Source of the DNA: Xestospongia bergquistia
Lineage: Eukaryota; Porifera; Demospongiae; Haplosclerida; Petrosiidae
Assembly (NCBI GenBank): GCA_963965975.1
Contig: OZ014412.1
Coordinates: forward strand, 10,335,849-10,399,848
DNA: 64,000 bases
Direction of reading: 5' to 3'
A program made the position numbers and the translations under genes. Position 1 is the stretch's first letter. Every line of letters starts with the position of its first letter. The notes beneath the pieces were generated by a model. It made no database searches and was not told where the DNA came from. It saw nothing but the letters and a program-made list of their open reading frames with translations. Positions 52,401-62,700 of this stretch are shown here, in pieces.

Positions 52401-55400
52401 TAATAACATAACAACACACAATTTAGTTAATAGTGTGTGTTCAAAGGTCTATCAGTAACACTTATTACTGTAATGTAATGGAGTAGAGAGATAAACAATA
52501 ATTACTGGTACATCTTTGATAAGTGATGTAATTGTAAAGTTTGCAACTCAATAACAACGACTGTTTTTAAAACAAAATTCACCAATATATATATATATGC
52601 TAATCAAAATTATGAATATTATAATTCAAGTCCAAAGTGCAAAGTCCAAGGGATACTACAGTAATATGTGTCAAGGTAAAGGCCATTAGATAAATGTACT
52701 CGATTATTCTATAGTACAGTAAAACCATGAAAAGAATAGGTGTATCTTGAAAATATGAATTATGATATAATAATCAATTTATAATTTAAATAGCATTGTT
52801 AAGTATGTACAGTGTTATTCATGTGACAGTAAGTGGGTGGTGTTGTTTTCAAAAGGATGGGCTTTATTAAGAGAAAGGACACATCATAGAAGAAGCAGAA
52901 ACTTTCAAACCAGAAGTTTCAGGACAACAAGAAAGCTGTTTTTACAGAAGGTTCTTACTAAGATACATATAATGTACTCTTGAAGATATTGTGATTAATT
53001 GGAACCAAACTACATTATAAATCATTAAATTACAAATATTAAAATACGGTCCTTTAAATCACAATAATATTTCTCTCATCGATAAATTTGTGATTTTGCA
53101 ATCTTAAATTTACAAATTCTTTTTATAATTTATGGCAACAGTTTGTCACCGAACAATGTGCGATGAGGTACATGATATAGTGACAAGTGTACCTTGTATA
53201 ACTTCAGGTGACATATATCTTACAGTACCAATACTGGCAGTATAAAGGAGATTAGTCTCCAAATTACGACAAGTACCAAAGTCACATAATTTGAGATGAG
53301 ATCCATTACCAAATAAAAGTAAACTAAATTATATATAAGAGAGAAAAAAGAATGTTTTAATAACTACATTTATTAAAGTTATTGTACTCATTCTAAACTT
53401 TAATATCATGTTATTTTATCTGTAAAAACATCATTTCAAAAGAAATAATTATTATTTTTACATACTGTACATGTAGGTCTTCAGTTATAACATCATGTCT
53501 GAGCTATTTGAGAGCATAAACAAGCTATAAAAAGTACAATAGCTATACTGTACTATAACTCATTCATTATAGTCTTCAAGTGAATGGCAATAGAACAAAC
53601 AATTGTTTTTACAAATAATGTACATATACAAAGTGCTTCACATATTGTCTGAACTAGTGTTATTCTGTTCTCTTACTTTGATGCCTTGATATCACGATGT
53701 AATATTCGTTTACTATGAATATAGTTCAATCCAACAGCTGTTTGTCGAGACCAATGCATCACATGATCAGCACCATATCCATAACGTGGGTAAGACCCAT
53801 GTAATACTAATTAATATTTAGATATAATGAATAGATGACTGTTTTAATAATGAACTCACCTCTTTCAAGAGAGTAAGGAGCAAATTCCATTACAATATAA
53901 GGCTAAATGAAAGAGAAACAATATTAACTATTTTTATAATAGCTGTGTTTGTTTATATTATAATAATTATGTTTTGGTATACAATTGTTATTAATAACAA
54001 ATTTAAGATATCGTTATTGGTAATGTCTGCTAATAGAACTTATAATGAACTTAATATTCTAGAATATTAAATAAATACTACATTACTGTATTAGATATGT
54101 ATGAGCTAAAGGTTTGTTAGAGAACACAGTTCACAAATGTCAATTAGATTATACAAAATCAATAAATCAATCAATAAATAAATAAATCAATGATCAATCA
54201 CTGAATCAATCAACAAATCAATCACTGAATCAATCAACAAATCAATCACTGAATCAATCAACAAATCAATCACTGAATCAATCAACAAATCAATCAATGA
54301 ATCAATCAACAAATCAACCAATGAATCAATCAACAAATCAATCAATGAATCAATCAACAAATCAATCAATGAATCAATCAACAAATCAACCAATGAATCA
54401 ATCAACAAATCAATCAATGAATCAATCAACAAATCAATCAATGAATCAATCAACAAATCAACCAATGAATCAATCAACAAATCAATCAATGAATCAATCA
54501 ACAAATCAACCAATGAATCAATCAATGAATAAATGAAAGCCAACTATAATCTTAAATGAAAGAAAAAACTCATTCAAGATATGGTTCCATTTCTAATAAA
54601 GTGATAAAACACTCTTGTGCTTTAATTTTAGTAATGTATTCATATTTACTTTTTACCTATTACTTATTACTGACCAATCAAATCATTTTAAATTGCATTG
54701 AACGCTAATAGAAAAATGCTGAGTTATTGACATTAAAATTATAGAACACTTATTATATAAATTAAATGTGTTAGTAACTCACTTCTTTGCTAGCTTTTGC
54801 TGCTCCAGTTCCAAATAATATGACAATATTATCATGTTTCTGAAGACAACTAAGAAATACTAACTAAATAAAATAGAAAAAAGTTTTGAACAGGGTTAAT
54901 TTTGTCAACCATTTCTCTGCTCCATCCATCCATTAATCCATTCATCTGTCCATCTATCCATTAATCCATTCATCTATCCATCCATCCATTAATCCATTCA
55001 TCTGTCCATCCATCCATTAGTCCATTCATCTGCCCATCCATCCATTAATCCATTCATCTGTCCATCCATCCATTAATCCATTCATCTGTCCATCCATCCA
55101 TTAATCCATTCATCAGTCCATCCATCCATTAATCCATTCATCAGTCCATCCATCCATTAATCCATTCATCTGTCCATCCATCCATTAATCCATTCATCTG
55201 TCCATCCATCCATTAATCCATTCATCAGTCCATCCATCCATTAATCCATTCATCAGTCCATCCATCCATTAATCCATTCATCAGTCCATCCATCCATTAA
55301 TCCATTCATCTGTCCATCCATCCATTAATCCATTCATCCATTAATCCATTCATCAGTCCATCCATCCATTAATCCATTCATCAGTCCATCCATCCATTAA

Positions 55401-56340
55401 TCCATTCATCAGTCCATCTATCCATATAAACCTCTTGTTTATAGCCTCTTTTTTCTTCAGCTGATCTAAAATATTTTACTGCTACTTTTTTCTCATCATA
55501 TACAGCTCTCATTACCTTACCATATGCACCAGTCTCTATTAACTACATTAAACATATTATAATAATGACAATATCAAATAATAGTATCATATACATGTAC
55601 AATAACAAATATACACTCTATATGGCCAGTCTATATGATAGGTATATAACAACACTGACTATATATAAAGTCTATAATGTATGAGCTAGTCACATATCTA
55701 AGCAGATATGGCCAGATCATAGGTCAAAGGTGAGGTCATACATGACAAAAAACACAACCTAATATCAATAGCTGTCACTGACCCACTCCTTCAGTACAAC
55801 AGCTTTGTTCTCTCATAAAATCACATTGGTATAGAAATTTTTACAAAAGTCTAGTTCCTAATTCATTTGAATAACTTGCCTCTACTGTTTTTGAGGCAAT
55901 CACACAATGAGGGCTAATATAATTGTACATATGGTATTGTACACCTGCTTTAGTAATGGATGTAGCTTTTATATACGACCTCTCCTCTCTCAATTGTCCG
56001 TCTGAGGTGGAATGAGAGTGTTTATTCCTTTAATAGTAACATATACAAAGCATAGCTACACTATAAGTGAATAAACGTCAGTCTTTATTCCAGAACATAC
56101 GAGCACTCTAGATACCAGACTATCATACATTGTAAATCATAGAGATATGATAGTCACAGAGATAATAGACTCAGTCTTGTCGTGATAGTAACATACCGTG
56201 TTAGTAGATTTATTAAACTGAAGGCTAGTCTCCTCAATTAGCGGGCATTCTACCTTCAGTCGTATCTTCCTGACAGCATCAGCTGTACTTGTCGACATTT
56301 TCGATTCAGAGTAGGCAGGTAATAGGTGTGGCGTATTCAT
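46324..56340 (-). CDS. MAP3K7: TAK1 (MAP3K7)-like protein kinase, 16 exons, 549 aa
   Basis: Exons (high to low): 56197-56340, 55432-55542, 54783-54863, 53860-53902, 53677-53806, 53193-53323, 51031-51168, 50241-50298, 49079-49151, 48730-48769, 47955-48068, 47548-47660, 47295-47485, 46823-47018, 46600-46659, 46324-46350. They join in frame to 549 aa, near the ~580-600 aa of TAK1. Kinase motifs: GAYGKV, VAVK, ILHRDIKASN, LCDFGT, YMSPEV, CDIFSFAITLWEM and CWHQDPTARLS. The kinase domain ends near residue 310. A Ser/Thr-rich linker follows, then GLSPHLQPVTPDENDPES and MYEQFMK, matching the start of the TAK1 C-terminal TAB2/3-binding segment. TAK1 activates NF-kB and JNK/p38 cascades. Oddities: the first Gly of the GxGxxG loop is Glu (IETGAYG), and the C-terminal coiled coil is cut short (LSAQLQNS-stop). 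An alternative start is the Met at 56298. It could instead be a related MLK/RAF-like kinase, but the tail favours TAK1. Confidence 0.8.
48222..48626. repeat. 23-bp minisatellite, about 17 units, in a kinase intron
   Basis: The unit is TGTTGTTATACTATGTGGTATAC, with a variant carrying TACGTAG. The period of 23 is not a multiple of three, so three overlapping frames stay open and repeat the same peptides; these are not genes. The intron separates the exons ending YYEET and beginning DPLGEDD. Confidence 0.95.
48877..48925. repeat. (TA)n microsatellite in a kinase intron
   Basis: Alternating TA tract between kinase exons 9 and 10. A (TG)n tract of about 30 bp lies in the preceding intron at 49424-49454. 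Confidence 0.9.
50112..50272 (-). repeat. Five 32-bp tandem units copying the exon 8 splice donor
   Basis: On the minus strand each unit contains TTATTAATGAACTCTTAATGAG followed by GTAA in four units and by CTAA in the last. The first unit is the true end of exon 8 (50241-50298, FINELLM) with its donor; the following units lie in the intron. Repeat starts are at 50113, 50145, 50177, 50209 and 50241. Confidence 0.9.
51187..51362. repeat. 17-bp minisatellite in a kinase intron
   Basis: About ten copies of AACAATCTATTATTAAT with A/C and T/C variants, just upstream (in gene sense) of exon 7. Confidence 0.9.
51369..53192. other. Large kinase intron with no recognised feature
   Basis: This is most of the 2-kb intron between exons 6 and 7. 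An open frame of 117 codons on the minus strand (51556-51909) has no recognisable domain or splice context, and I regard it as chance. Confidence 0.5.
54160..54535. repeat. 24-bp minisatellite in a kinase intron
   Basis: Tandem units of CAATCAACAAATCAATCAATGAAT with CACTGAAT and ACCAATGAAT variants. Because 24 is divisible by three, both strands show long repetitive open frames (about 80-120 codons), which are artefacts. It lies between kinase exons 3 and 4. Confidence 0.95.
54918..55425. repeat. 28-bp minisatellite in a kinase intron
   Basis: About 17 units of CCATCCATCCATTAATCCAT plus TCATCTGT or TCATCAGT, ending only a few bases before the donor of exon 2 (55432). Confidence 0.95.
55543..56196. 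other. Kinase intron 1, no recognised feature
   Basis: About 650 bp of AT-rich intron. No repeat family, RNA gene or coding segment was recognised. Confidence 0.5.
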
Positions 56341-56400: not shown

Positions 56401-58552
56401 TTAGGTCAACGTTTGCAAGTTGTCCAAAATTTTACATGCAAGATTAAATTCCTGCTCAATTTTATCAGTGAATTCTTGTAGCCAGTCTGATGCTGAAAAC
56501 TCTTTCTTGTTTAAATGTTGGTAAGCATTAGTGACAACATCAGGTAGATCAATGGACGTCACAATAACAGGTTGACTCTCTCTCTCTTGATTAATCGACA
56601 CATCTACCTTCACTCCAATTTCCGTTAGTACAGTTTCCAAAAGATCTTTCTCAGTTGGCGCTAGTGATGATAGCCGTTGTCTTAAATTAGCGACAATTTG
56701 ACAGAGCTGACTTTCAAATACTACAATATGTTGTAAATCTTTTAAATCACTTTTAGAAACTGTTTCAGCAGCAGTTGACATTAAAGCTGTTACCCCACCC
56801 ACTGTACCAATACCGGCACCAACTCCAGTTAAGACCAGTGATAACCCCAGTGTAACAGGAATCAGTCCTAGACCACCAATACTCAAAACAGTTCCAGCCA
56901 CACCTCCTGTTCGACCTATTAATTTAGCAGCATATAGATCATTACATGTTTTAATGATGAGTCTTTTGTTTGTTTTCAGAGAATTGATGACCATTTTTCG
57001 TACAGGTAACAGGATACGTAATGTCATTATTAACTCCCATAATAGAAACTGTACTGACAATCTATATAATAAAGTAAAATCATTACAACACCAAATGACA
57101 TAAGTGTCAATGACTTATATTTTTTAAGTCAGAGATGAAAGTTTTGAGAAAGCATGCAAATATCCCATTATAAACTAATATGACTACAAAATACATCTAT
57201 TCATCATGTGTTCAGCATGTTTTTATCATGTGAATAGACTCAAAAAAGTCACATTCATATTATATACACTATACATGTACTAGCAATAATGCGTAATGAT
57301 GCATTCAATACAAGAAAAACATACATTTCTGTTCAATAGCATTACTTTTAAGTACACAGGTGTTTTTTTCACACTTTAGTTTTAACAGTTGGTTTACTTA
57401 CATTTTTGGAGGTTTTGTTGGTGAAGGAAGGACAAACGCTTGACCAAGTTGAGTGTTAGAAGTTATAGAGTCACTTTGATGTGTGTGTAAGAACACACTA
57501 CCTGTGGTGATATTATCAGCATAATTATATAGAACATCTAATAAAGAGGACAGTTGAGGATATTGAGGACATTGTGATGAGTATGGTATAGTACAGGTGA
57601 TCTTTATAGCATCTGATGACTCCTTTGTTTGATCTGGAGCTGAAGGGTTAGGAATCATTTGGAAGAGAAATATTTTAGGTTTATTAATTAACGAGGGACA
57701 CTTGTCATCAGAAAACACATCAATGATCTCTTTAGGGAGGATGCCCCTTTCGTCAATTCCATTAATAGCTCCTTGATCACCTATTCCAATGATGACCACT
57801 AGCAAACATGATAGTGGGGTGTGGTCTATTTGGCTAACAGTTTTTAGCAACAAACGAATAGCATCACATGAAAGTTGTGATAAGACATGAGTATGAAGAC
57901 TGTATTGATCTTGAAGTATATGACATAATCTTTTAATAGGACGATGTTTAGATTGTTTGTTGGTGCTACTGGTACTATTGTCAATGATAATACAATAGCC
58001 ATTGGGTAGTAATAGAGATGATGAGTGGGTGTGGCTGAGAGAGGTCTCTATAGAAACAAAGAGTTCGTACATAATTAAAATGTATAATAGTTTTTTTCTA
58101 TTACTCATTATACAATAACGTGTATAGAGGAAGGATAGGGTGTTTAAAAGAACTTAAAGAAGGTGAACTAAGCTCCTTTAATTTTTACCAGGTATTACTG
58201 ACATAATAACTTTAATGACAATAAAGTAATCAGCTGCATTCTTTGCTTTAAGTAAGGTTTTGGCCACCAGAGGAACAAAATGGAGGCACATCAGTCAATA
58301 TAATGAAATACATCAACCTGTATCTGGCTCCTCCCCCTTACCACGCGGGGAAGACTTGGCCATGCAATTATGTTACTATCCCTGTGATCATTGTGATTAT
58401 CTACATAGTCTTCTTATAACAATATTGACATATGTGATTAATATGATCACTTGATGACATACTACAATTGTAGACAACTTACTCCACTTAGTAATGGATG
58501 GGCTTTGTTCAGACATTGCAACTTCAAACAATTGTTCTTCTACTGTAGACAT
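56401..58552 (-). CDS. Inactive caspase-fold protein with C-terminal ApoL-like hydrophobic region, 458 aa
   Basis: Exons 58483-58552, 57402-58047 and 56401-57061 join in frame (70+646+661 nt). The start ATG at 58552 gives MSTVEEQLFEVAMSEQ, with no CARD or death-effector domain. Residues ~40-160 follow the caspase large subunit: GYCIIIDN near 40, PLSCLLVVIIGIGDQGAING near 101, and CPSLINKPKIFLFQMIP near 140. Active caspases have SHG and QACxG; here these are GIG (Ile112) and QMIPN (Ile155), so the catalytic His and Cys are absent. A weak small-subunit-like stretch follows. Residues ~288-338 form a Gly-rich hydrophobic segment (GGVAGTVLSIGGLGLIPVTL, LTGVGAGIGTVGG) whose pattern resembles the membrane-inserting part of apolipoprotein L proteins, followed by helical sequence. 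Inference: a regulatory pseudo-caspase with a membrane-active module. The kinase gene begins 60 bp downstream on the same strand. The caspase call is firm; the ApoL call is moderate. Confidence 0.8.
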
Positions 58553-58870: not shown

Positions 58871-59749
58871 TTAGTCTTCGACATCTTCATCATCTAAATG
58901 AGTTAGATGAATCCTGGGTTTATCTGTCTTTAAGTTTATTGGTTTAGGAGGTTTATTAATTGTAGTTCTTTTACTCCCAACAAAATATTCAGGCATTTTT
59001 AGCACACCACCCTGAAAATGTCCCGGTCTTTTGGAAGACTTGTCATTTTGATCAGTTGTTGAGTCCTCTTTTTCGACTGCTATATCATGAGATAAGTCCC
59101 TTAACTGAACATCATATGATTGGTGTTCATGTTGTTCAGTTGATCTTTCTGGTAAATCATCATTTTGTAAAATGTGGTCATGTACAACTGGATTAATTGA
59201 TGGTATTAGTTTGTCTATGCAAACTGCTTGACCTTTTTTGGTTGTTTTACTACCACTAATGACTCTTTGTGATGAAGTAGGCTTTTTAAACGTTATCTTG
59301 TGATTTAAATCAGTAGGTTGTTCATCAGCAGCTGGTTGTGTATTACGACGACTAAGTTCATTTAAAAAATCAAATGCAGCTTTACGATTTACTTGATCAT
59401 CATTCATTCCTTCATAACCATGTTTATTTGTACCATCTTCTGTTAAATCATATCTGGTCCATTTCTTAGGAGCAGTAACATAGTTTGGTACTTTAGGCAC
59501 ATGACGAGAACGCATATGATTTCTACTAGAAGTAGGGGAACGATCACGTGATCTAAATTCTCTGCTGGGCTCATCGGAGATTCTTTTACAGTCATTACGT
59601 GATCTTGAACTTGGTTTAATATGTGATGGTCCCTCTACTGCACTATGTATATCATCACCAGGATCATCTTTTAATGGAGGATCAGTAACAGATTTGAGTG
59701 TGGCGTTTAAAGACCCAAATGTGTTCGAAATTCGCTCATTAAAGTCCAT
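58871..59749 (-). CDS. TSSC4: TSSC4 homologue (U5 snRNP assembly factor), single exon, 292 aa
   Basis: Uninterrupted 292-codon reading frame beginning MDFNERISNTFGSLNA and ending HLDDEDVED. The protein is hydrophilic and probably largely disordered, with an Arg/Ser/Asp-rich stretch at about 45-85. The conserved core, at about residues 84-155, reads VPKVPNYVTAPKKWTRYDL, then RKAAFDFLNEL and HKITFKKPT. This is the order seen in TSSC4 (VPDYxxxPxxWTxY, a short helix, then a [VI]xFxxP motif). TSSC4 is known as a nuclear chaperone that helps assemble the U5 and tri-snRNP particles of the spliceosome. It is the only intron-free gene in the window. It is divergent from and head-to-head with NPRL2, with only 47 bp between the start codons. 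Confidence 0.8.
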   Translation of the reverse strand: MDFNERISNTFGSLNATLKSVTDPPLKDDPGDDIHSAVEGPSHIKPSSRSRNDCKRISDEPSREFRSRDRSPTSSRNHMRSRHVPKVPNYVTAPKKWTRYDLTEDGTNKHGYEGMNDDQVNRKAAFDFLNELSRRNTQPAADEQPTDLNHKITFKKPTSSQRVISGSKTTKKGQAVCIDKLIPSINPVVHDHILQNDDLPERSTEQHEHQSYDVQLRDLSHDIAVEKEDSTTDQNDKSSKRPGHFQGGVLKMPEYFVGSKRTTINKPPKPINLKTDKPRIHLTHLDDEDVED

Positions 59750-59796
59750 TTTCTTGGAGTGTGAGAAAGGGCGTGGCTGCCTTGCCTCTTTTAAAC
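59750..59796. promoter_or_regulatory. 47-bp bidirectional promoter region between TSSC4 and NPRL2
   Basis: The interval separates two divergent start codons. It contains AGGGCGTGGC, a GC/CACCC-box-like sequence, in otherwise AT-rich DNA. The two 5' UTRs must be very short or overlap the opposite gene. The role is inferred from position. Confidence 0.6.
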
Positions 59797-62700
59797 ATGG
59801 CAGTGAAATGTATATTCTTTAGTGAGTTTCATCATGTTGCTGGACCAAAGATAACGTATCAGGTAAGTTTATAACAAGTATTGATTCATTGCTACACATT
59901 GGTTGTTATAGAATCCTGAAGAGTTCCCAATAAGAGAAGCATTTGATGCAGTCCATGATCTGATCATCACTAAACCACAGCTTTATAATAGACTGATCTC
60001 GGTGTAAGTAAGTAGGAGGAGTCTACTATCTGTATTGGATTAGTTTCTATGTAATTTACTTAGCAATCATTGTAGTCTTGTTAGTCTCACATTGTCAAAC
60101 CCCAGTTCTCTCAACTGAAAACAAGAGACCATATACTTGTGTTTGTATAGCCAATAAATAACTTCAGTCCCTTCACAATAAACTAAAACCCAGCATTATA
60201 GGGTAATTGGAACTGAGAACACTTTTTTAGTTATGTACTGTACATGTATGATGTTCAGCTAATCTGTTTACTTGTACTACTACATACAAAGCTAACTGGG
60301 AGGTGCTGACTTCACTAATAATAATAGTCTTTTATTTTATGATGACATGTGAACTAAGACATTAATCAATTCTGCAGTAATAGTATGTATATATCACTGT
60401 AAACACTACTCTGTTTTAATCAACTTATACACTACATGTTGCTAGAGAATGTAATAGTATAAAGATAAAAGCTACAAATGCCCTTACCCTTTCAATGTGA
60501 CTACAGTGCAAACATAAGAAGGAAATAGACTACATTGTATATACTTGGCTATTATCTGATCAGGTGTTATACAGAATCTCATAACTCTGACAATCAACTA
60601 ATGACTTTTCATTAGTATATTAGTTATGAGAACAGAGTATATTATAATTATGCAATGAATATGACCAGCATAGATTGATTAAACTAACCAATCTATTTTA
60701 TAATAATATATGATTGGTGTTTTATGTTAGATAGTTTATAATATGATTTTTTACTTTCTGTGTTATAGTGATGTTGGTGAATATAGAATAGTAGGTTGTC
60801 CAAAGAGTATAGAAGATAACAGATATGCAAGAAATGCTCTCATCTTTAATTTTGTGTTTGTATTTGAGGAAGAAACAACAACAACAACTTATGAACCTGT
60901 CATTCAAAAGTTAGGCAATGCTTTTAGAACATATGAGGTAAACACACCAGACATGGGGTCAATTACATTGTATTGTAATATATTACTATCACTATTACTT
61001 AGAAATTTTACCTATTATATTACTATTACTATTACAACTAAATTGTAATGTAATATATTACTATTACTTCAAAACATATAATCATTACTATTACTATTAA
61101 TATTACTGATTTTTTGTGATTAAATCTTTAAATCAAAGTTTCAAAAATGTCAACTAATATTGCGTAAAAGTTATGCTTATTGTGCTAATAGCTTAATGAA
61201 GTTTTCCACGTTTACTTTCATTTTTGATCTATATAACCTATTACTTAGACTATTACTTTACTATTACTATTACTATTACTTCAAAACATGTAATCATTAC
61301 TATTACGGTATTACCTATTACTATTACCACATGCATGTCTGAAACACACTATATTTGTTAAAGTACCAGGCCTGGGGTAATAGTAATATGTAATAGTAAT
61401 AGTAATAGTAATATATGTTTGAAAATAGTGGTGTAATAGTAATAGTAATAATAATAGAAGGGAAAGTAATATGTAATTTCATATTACATTTCTATTACAT
61501 TCCTGTTTAGTCCTATGTTGTGTTAGTTAGCAATTTAGCATATGTCTCTGACTCTCTGATCAGTTAGGAAGGTATAGCAAGGTATTTTCTGACCTGACAG
61601 GTGCTCCCTGAGTGACTCTGTATTTCAAAAACTAATCACCATAAAATGCAATGGACATGTTAGTGATGTTACAACTGCTTGATTTAATTTCTTAAATACA
61701 TATTACAAAATCTTAACCTAATAGTAATAGTAATATAAAATTTTGAAGTAATAGTAATAGTTATAAAGTACATGTCATTTTAAGTGTGTGTGTGGTACAT
61801 TTTATTATAGTTGAAACCAAGGTAACAATTTTCCACTTACTTTAATGTATAGCTTCAGTCTCTCTATCCTTGCCTGTTTCATTTTGTTCTTAATTAACTA
61901 TTTTTTCTTCACAGTTCATACATTAAAATTATGTACATATACATAGATACATTGTTTTTTGCTTGGCTCAAGAAATATGGCAAGCAATTCTAGGATTTTT
62001 TTCACCACATGTTTGCTTACATCGTTTGTTTTGTTATTGTGTTCAACTATTTAATGTGAAAAATAGAACACAATGACTGGATTTATACCACAAGCACTGT
62101 AATAACGGTGATCTTAATAATAGAAGTATCTAGCCTTTAAATATTCTAGAAAAAATTATGTAGCTGAGCAACAATTTTTACAAATCTCTCCAATTCTTCT
62201 TAATTTTATTCTACTAACACAGAATAACCATTAATATTAGGATGATTTTTATTATAATATTGTTTTGACTTTGTGTCTTTCTCCATTAAGCTGGAGAGCG
62301 GTTTCTTATCACAAGAGGTCACTAAATCTAAGATTCCATCAATTCTGTCTAAAATACGTACAGGTCTTAATTCACATGGTATTTGTGATATACCAATAGG
62401 TTAGTAAAAATGTGTACTGTCATATCATTATTAGTATCATCCTTTGTTTGTAGATGACAGTAACACTTTACGTCTTAAAGTCACTCCAAACCTTCACACT
62501 CCACCTCCAGTTCATAATTATCATGTCCCCGTGTTTACCTGTCCCCCTAAAGAACTAACCCAATTATTAGCATCAGACCTTACAATACAAGAGGTATAGC
62601 TAAAGAAATTACACATAATGTTTATGGATTGAGGAATCTAATAAACTATAATTATACAAAACCATTATTTATAGTGTACCATCATATACAGTGTCATTCG

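Follow-up and report, generated by a model that had tools for sequence, protein, structure and literature searches.

The window, a 64,000-nucleotide stretch of contig OZ014412.1 of the sponge Xestospongia bergquistia, contains on its minus strand a predicted three-exon gene in which a caspase-like domain is followed by a region of the apolipoprotein L (ApoL) type (Table 1). Joining the three exons yields an open frame of 458 aa with GT-AG ends at 58483/58047 and 57402/57061, in agreement with the exon structure and both junctions of the original prediction. The model of the first exon (23 aa) is based on one ATG and one good donor. A Pfam scan of the joined product placed Peptidase_C14 at residues 40 to 156 (E 9.3e-14) and ApoL at residues 280 to 380 (E 6.5e-9), both above the curated cut-offs, so that the proposed large-subunit scaffold of a caspase was recovered, as was the ApoL resemblance of the C-terminal half, for which the profile search had been set beforehand. 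Collectively, the sequence evidence supports well a single predicted transcript that encodes an inactive caspase fold followed by an ApoL-type region. Structure predictions of exons 2 and 3 as single sequences were of very low confidence (pLDDT, 36.5 and 40.4); when the exon 2 model was used as a Foldseek query, no caspase was among the matches listed, and 0 of 85 matches reached E ≤ 0.001. Repeats within the gene were limited to short two-copy matches, and the profile search of the genome found no second C14 match near it.

Table 1 Predicted gene and neighbouring genes in the window
Feature	Position	Strand	Basis and remarks
Predicted exon 1	58483..58552	minus	23 codons + 1 base; ATG start; phase-1 GTAAGT donor
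Exon 2, pseudo-caspase	57402..58047	minus	Pfam Peptidase_C14 3.4e-14; catalytic columns; phase-2 donor
Exon 3, ApoL-type region	56401..57061	minus	Pfam ApoL 2.3e-9; alignment A2; hydropathy
TSSC4-like gene, directly upstream of exon 1	58871-59818	minus	Pfam TSSC4 5.2e-7
Protein-kinase gene, start about 100 bp past the ApoL stop	53146-56298	minus	Start and extent by eye from open reading frames

The gap between the TSSC4-like gene and exon 1 is about 320 bp, which leaves no room for an enzyme exon within it. On the other side, the neighbouring kinase gene includes a frame at 53146-53328 matching Pkinase (Pfam, 3.4e-9) and an activation-loop frame whose best PDB match is TAK1/MAP3K7 (E 1.7e-5). 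Two tandem arrays, 54157-54525 (24-nt units) and 54909-55425 (28-nt units), also lie in this part of the window. The second runs into the frame 55381-55542, which by eye resembles a kinase N-lobe exon and has no Pfam match by itself.

A six-frame profile search of the genome (146.5-Mb assembly, 21 contigs, with the window on contig C2) identified at least 25 ApoL places and at least 99 C14 places, both being lower bounds. In 22 of the 25 ApoL places, the same strand carries a caspase-like exon upstream; the window gene is one among about 22 such genes, and its reading as a singular oddity was wrong. The exceptions are L052 and L053 on contig C4, ApoL genes with no caspase-like exon seen in the surrounding frames, and L012 on contig C8, a broken copy in which a kinase exon is directly followed by ApoL. 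L052 and L053 stand well apart from the fused rows in the ApoL tree and are possibly an unfused ApoL type. Two units on contig C1 (C1:2041091 and C1:2048060; L009 and L010), each consisting of caspase, pseudo-caspase, and ApoL exons, are nearly identical tandem duplicates.

The junction between exons 2 and 3 was scored in 18 loci (L015 left out). The phase-2 donor was the best (16 loci) or tied best (L019 and L020) in all 18, and the matching acceptor was the best (15 loci) or tied best (L002 and L019) in 17; L020, whose ApoL frame is broken, failed at the acceptor. Donor phase alone is partly built in, because a phase-2 GTAA donor itself supplies an in-frame TAA. The stronger points are the caspase-like frames that end exactly in the donor (16/18 loci versus 10/145 control frames of at least 60 aa from the window) and the acceptor control, in which 50 of the 145 had an acceptor of matching phase. 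These rows are paralogs and no independent events, and their value lies in conservation at 20 to 33% identity to the window copy. In 17 of 18 loci, the caspase-like exon starts at a phase-1 acceptor (none was found in L058). Between this acceptor and the domain, a Met is absent in eight of nine junctions (U4189 has one) and in the window copy, so an upstream exon is normally needed. Since intron phases are kept across divergent paralogs, the fusion of the caspase-like and ApoL exons is, from the gene structures, very likely real. A merely apparent fusion, with exons 2 and 3 coming from two separate genes, would be compatible with a window start and first exon that are themselves predictions; we regard this as highly improbable given the same neighbour, order, and strand throughout the 22 places, the kept intron phases, and the exact ending of 16 of the 18 frames in a donor.

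The loss of both catalytic residues proposed for the window copy was borne out by the alignment, in which GIG takes the place of SHG and QMIPN that of QACxG, with Ile at both catalytic positions. Both His and Cys are lost in all 20 aligned caspase-like exons, none of which keeps either residue, and likewise in L013, giving 21 of 21 readable caspase-like exons upstream of ApoL without the catalytic pair. The 22nd, upstream of C1:2066171, ends at the locus edge before the motifs and was left unread for catalytic loss. The His is replaced by E, K, R, or N, and by I in the window copy alone; the other 20 readable copies read S[EKRN]G, N[K]G, or CRG, from which the window GIG departs. The Cys position holds I, L, M, T, or Q. 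The caspase affinity of these exons is seen in Pfam C14 matches for all 16 submitted and in the match of the alignment A1 profile to PDB caspases (9e-30). C14 profiles reach only the large-subunit part of window exon 2, and the hhalign alignment is limited to the same part of the caspase-like exon. MAFFT placed the remainder of exon 2, with the AMRDxxxGSWY stretch missing, and this remainder may be a degenerate small subunit.

Window exon 3 matched the ApoL profile (PF05461) with 37.5 bits against a cut-off of 25.9 bits (E 2.3e-9), and all 15 ApoL exons submitted matched Pfam ApoL. Coverage extends over about profile positions 65 to 295 in several paralogs and over 84 to 186 only in the window copy. 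The window exon has one Gly-rich hydrophobic segment at about exon residues 53 to 93. In the part past residue 110, the highest mean over 19 residues is 0.69 for the window copy, whereas each of the 20 other measurable rows reaches 1.86 or more; of these 21 ApoL rows, it alone has no second hydrophobic segment (L016 was too short and left out, and the L005 maximum sits in its C-terminal tail). The ApoL frame of L005 (C2:4218566-4221931) has a very hydrophobic end, TTVIVFAILAILIFFSLW, where hydropathy past residue 110 peaks in this row and which is possibly a membrane tail anchor.

Vertebrate ApoL proteins (APOL1-6) act on membranes, and to our knowledge, little is understood of their activation. 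The sponge sequences resemble them in the profile match over the central hydrophobic part; unlike APOL1-6, the ApoL region here stands behind a caspase-like domain, and one hydrophobic segment, the second, is missing from the window copy. By analogy, the ApoL part of the window family may act on membranes. A PDB profile search with the ApoL alignment returned no ApoL structure among the matches listed. It gave borderline matches to the NheL1 lytic component and MakE hairpins (E 0.006 and 0.018), to NEMO (0.0079), and to other proteins. The weak resemblance to the hydrophobic hairpins of alpha-pore-forming toxins was dropped as support, being borderline, lying over a Gly-rich hydrophobic stretch, and hardly better than that to NEMO; composition alone could account for it.

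Several siblings of the window gene carry enzyme exons in front of the pseudo-caspase exon. In three of three loci, a kinase exon with a phase-1 donor precedes it by 76 nt (L004), 75 nt (L016), or 130 nt (L019), and a separate gene start in between is unlikely because 75 to 130 nt provide too little room. A second donor of the L016 kinase exon, in another phase, scores equally. The L004 frame is a protein kinase by Pfam (4.5e-31). The L019 kinase, joined by eye, matched an EGFR chain as the top PDB entry, then TNNI3K and BRI1, with Roco4 and IRAK4 lower, and this list of matches suggests that the L019 kinase is TKL-like. Kinase and membrane domain are splice-compatible within one chain in L004, L016, and L019, and the window copy is without a kinase head.

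On contig C1, six units have a full caspase-domain exon upstream, with SHG and QACRG present. The distance from the intact-looking caspase exon to the pseudo-caspase exon ranges from 0.34 to 1.5 kb (five units measured). The upstream caspase of U4189 is itself dead (SYG and THALV), and two more, preceding L003 and C1:2066171, are divided over different frames. In five of six units examined, a linker exon of compatible phases is present; U2057 has none. The phase match was dropped as strong evidence, as a control over all nine phase pairs yielded candidates in other phases too, the longest candidate having the needed phases in the same five of six. Positive selection on this caspase-type linker was likewise set aside: changes by codon position (13/10/8) were suggestive, and a comparison between U1182 and U1190 (pN, 0.231; pS, 0.249; ratio, about 0.93) is near neutral. 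It is plausible from the gene layout that the caspase exon and the pseudo-caspase-ApoL exons form one gene in these units, most so in U1190 and U2039, where the two are only 337 and 462 bp apart. No enzyme exon was seen in the DNA covered for ten genes (L001, L002, L005, L011, L013, L014, L015, L020, L058, and the window copy), a count that takes in a short stretch for L011 and L013 and almost none for L015, the added stretches being read at frames of at least 60 aa.

A caspase-domain tree was built from the 20 pseudo-C14 domains, the 6 upstream caspases, and 21 other caspase domains. A branch with support of 78/96, below the starred level, has all 20 pseudo-C14 rows on the same side; with three long rows omitted (pc_WIN, pc_L001, and up_U4189), the remaining 18 of 18 group at 99/96. 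Within them, a subclade of 8 holds the kinase types (100/99) and a subclade of 12 the caspase types, the window copy, and L001 (89/84). The ApoL tree recovers the kinase-type group (seven rows, L016 left out) at 100/100. These groupings suggest that the dead caspase domains probably share one origin, and they fit one original pseudo-caspase-ApoL fusion in which the heads were changed later.

Point estimates of dN/dS, taken without a significance test, were 0.25 for the dead domain and 0.48 for ApoL in the close pair L006/L008, 0.46 and 0.46 in L007/L011, and 0.54 and 0.68 in L002/L005. The dead domain of L004/L016 gave 0.93 (L016 is broken), and the upstream caspases gave 0.34 and 0.40.

The window copy is the most diverged of the family and has no close paralog. 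Its end branch is the longest in each tree (2.25 for pseudo-C14 and 2.46 for ApoL), and its letter make-up in the caspase tree is odd; the copy may be a specialised non-lytic member or regulator, or else decaying. Decay, meaning that the copy is a member of a real family with no function of its own, would account for the long branches, for a GIG unlike the motif type of the other 20 readable copies, for the missing second hydrophobic segment, and for the absence of an enzyme head. We nonetheless consider it unlikely, as both large exons are open (214 codons in exon 2 and 219 in exon 3), the splice sites have the position and phase usual in the family, and the scores of the two Pfam domains remain above their cut-offs. 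Because one hydrophobic segment is missing, the window copy would more probably modulate or partner other proteins than kill on its own.

Throughout the family, the pair of dead caspase and ApoL is constant and the trigger enzyme varies, for which the simplest reading is that the dead caspase quiets the ApoL domain and receives the signal. The pseudo-caspase would use the caspase dimer scaffold to keep the ApoL domain inactive and would be addressed by an enzyme. In the siblings, this enzyme would act in cis, through phosphorylation by the kinase or through caspase pairing and cleavage of the linker; the window copy is without an enzyme head and would depend on a caspase or kinase in trans. 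The released ApoL domain would then insert into a membrane, either killing the cell or attacking an invader inside it. The kinase type would be the analogue of RIPK and MLKL in one chain, and the caspase type that of caspase and gasdermin in one chain. Judged from the gene architectures, we give an even chance to the dead caspase being the control part of an ApoL membrane effector, with the enzyme in cis in the siblings and in trans for the window copy. Points counted against it are the low-pLDDT folds, the Foldseek matches without a caspase, the branch length of the window copy, and its missing second segment, together with the 78/96 grouping, dN/dS values of up to 0.93, the near-neutral linker, the tied donor of L016, and EGFR as the top match. 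A bolder version can be offered only tentatively, namely that the family represents a complete death switch in a single protein, in which the dead caspase locks ApoL and the trigger is swappable (caspase, kinase, or none), a third architecture next to caspase-gasdermin and RIPK-MLKL that perhaps stands in gasdermin's place in an animal lineage without it.

A different role for the same parts would be a scaffold for handling lipids or vesicles, with the dead caspase as an interaction domain and an ApoL region that binds lipid or remodels membranes, with no pores or killing. The single hydrophobic segment of the window copy is compatible with this role, as is an apol3-annotated gene among the lipoprotein-related genes raised in females, reported in the available part of a sponge study (PMC9012834). 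The enzymes linked to the family belong, however, to kinds that serve in death or signalling, namely a caspase with SHG/QACRG and a kinase with IRAK4 and TNNI3K among its PDB matches, an association that does not amount to function, and we rate the scaffold as somewhat doubtful.

The control-module reading also bears on the sponge repertoire of death effectors. A gasdermin profile search of the genome gave zero matches, and the same search matched in no control genome either. In the available part of a survey (PMC11508797), Porifera have NLR and caspase-1, and no gasdermin was found, so another pore former would fit. The ApoL domains are mostly tied to a dead caspase (22/25) and in some cases also to a kinase or an intact-looking caspase, which points to a caspase-ApoL link. 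A caspase-linked ApoL would be a concrete candidate for the membrane effector missing in Porifera according to that part of the survey (PMC11508797), and the proposed arrangement provides a model, open to testing, in which one chain forms a death effector and its triggers can be exchanged.

Caspase and gasdermin are the pair of pyroptosis, and RIPK3 and MLKL that of necroptosis, the latter with a four-helix bundle as membrane domain and a pseudo-kinase as middle module. Six siblings resemble the caspase-gasdermin system in placing an intact-looking caspase beside a membrane-acting domain; they differ in the ApoL domain, in possibly being a single chain, and in the dead caspase in between. Three siblings resemble RIPK3-MLKL in having a kinase ahead of the membrane domain, whereas here one chain is predicted, the membrane domain is ApoL instead of a four-helix bundle, and the middle is occupied by a pseudo-caspase and not a pseudo-kinase. 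The analogy with cFLIP-type pseudo-caspases that had been suggested for the window gene proved weak, as the joined product has no death-effector domain (DED) in the Pfam scan (E ≤ 1) and all 12 DED places identified genome-wide lie outside the window contig, C2. The sponge domains share with cFLIP and caspase-12 a caspase scaffold without a working active site, as far as these are covered in the available part of PMC11121540, and they are unlike them in that no DED was found, ApoL stands behind, there are about 22 copies, and His and Cys are both lost.

Expansions of caspase-3/7-like genes in bivalves, in the part of PMC7836458 available, are multi-copy and keep the conserved His in one member only. 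They are similar as multi-copy invertebrate caspases with the His mostly lost, and they differ in that the main text at hand (PMC7836458) is without the words apolipoprotein or ApoL. The same words are absent from the available portions of PMC4715348, PMC11121540, and PMC11508797. No description of a caspase-ApoL fusion was found in the literature searched, a partial coverage that includes portions of PMC9012834 and PMC12881547, and on this coverage the novelty of the fusion is provisional.

Caspase exons also occur in clusters elsewhere in the genome, at about 6.28 to 6.47 Mb on contig C11 (L042 and L044-L049) and at about 5.39 to 5.54 Mb on contig C12. In the seven members of the C11 cluster that were translated, CCISAPG and FIDCVRV-type motifs replace SHG and QACRG by eye, and the cluster appears on this inspection to be a second pseudo-caspase expansion, apart from the ApoL-linked family. 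The death-fold repertoire is very large, with at least 150 Death-domain matches in the genome (150 of 983 candidates scored). DEDs are rarer, and 8 of their 12 places lie on C11 at 6.69 to 6.71 Mb, beside the caspase exons L023 and L038.
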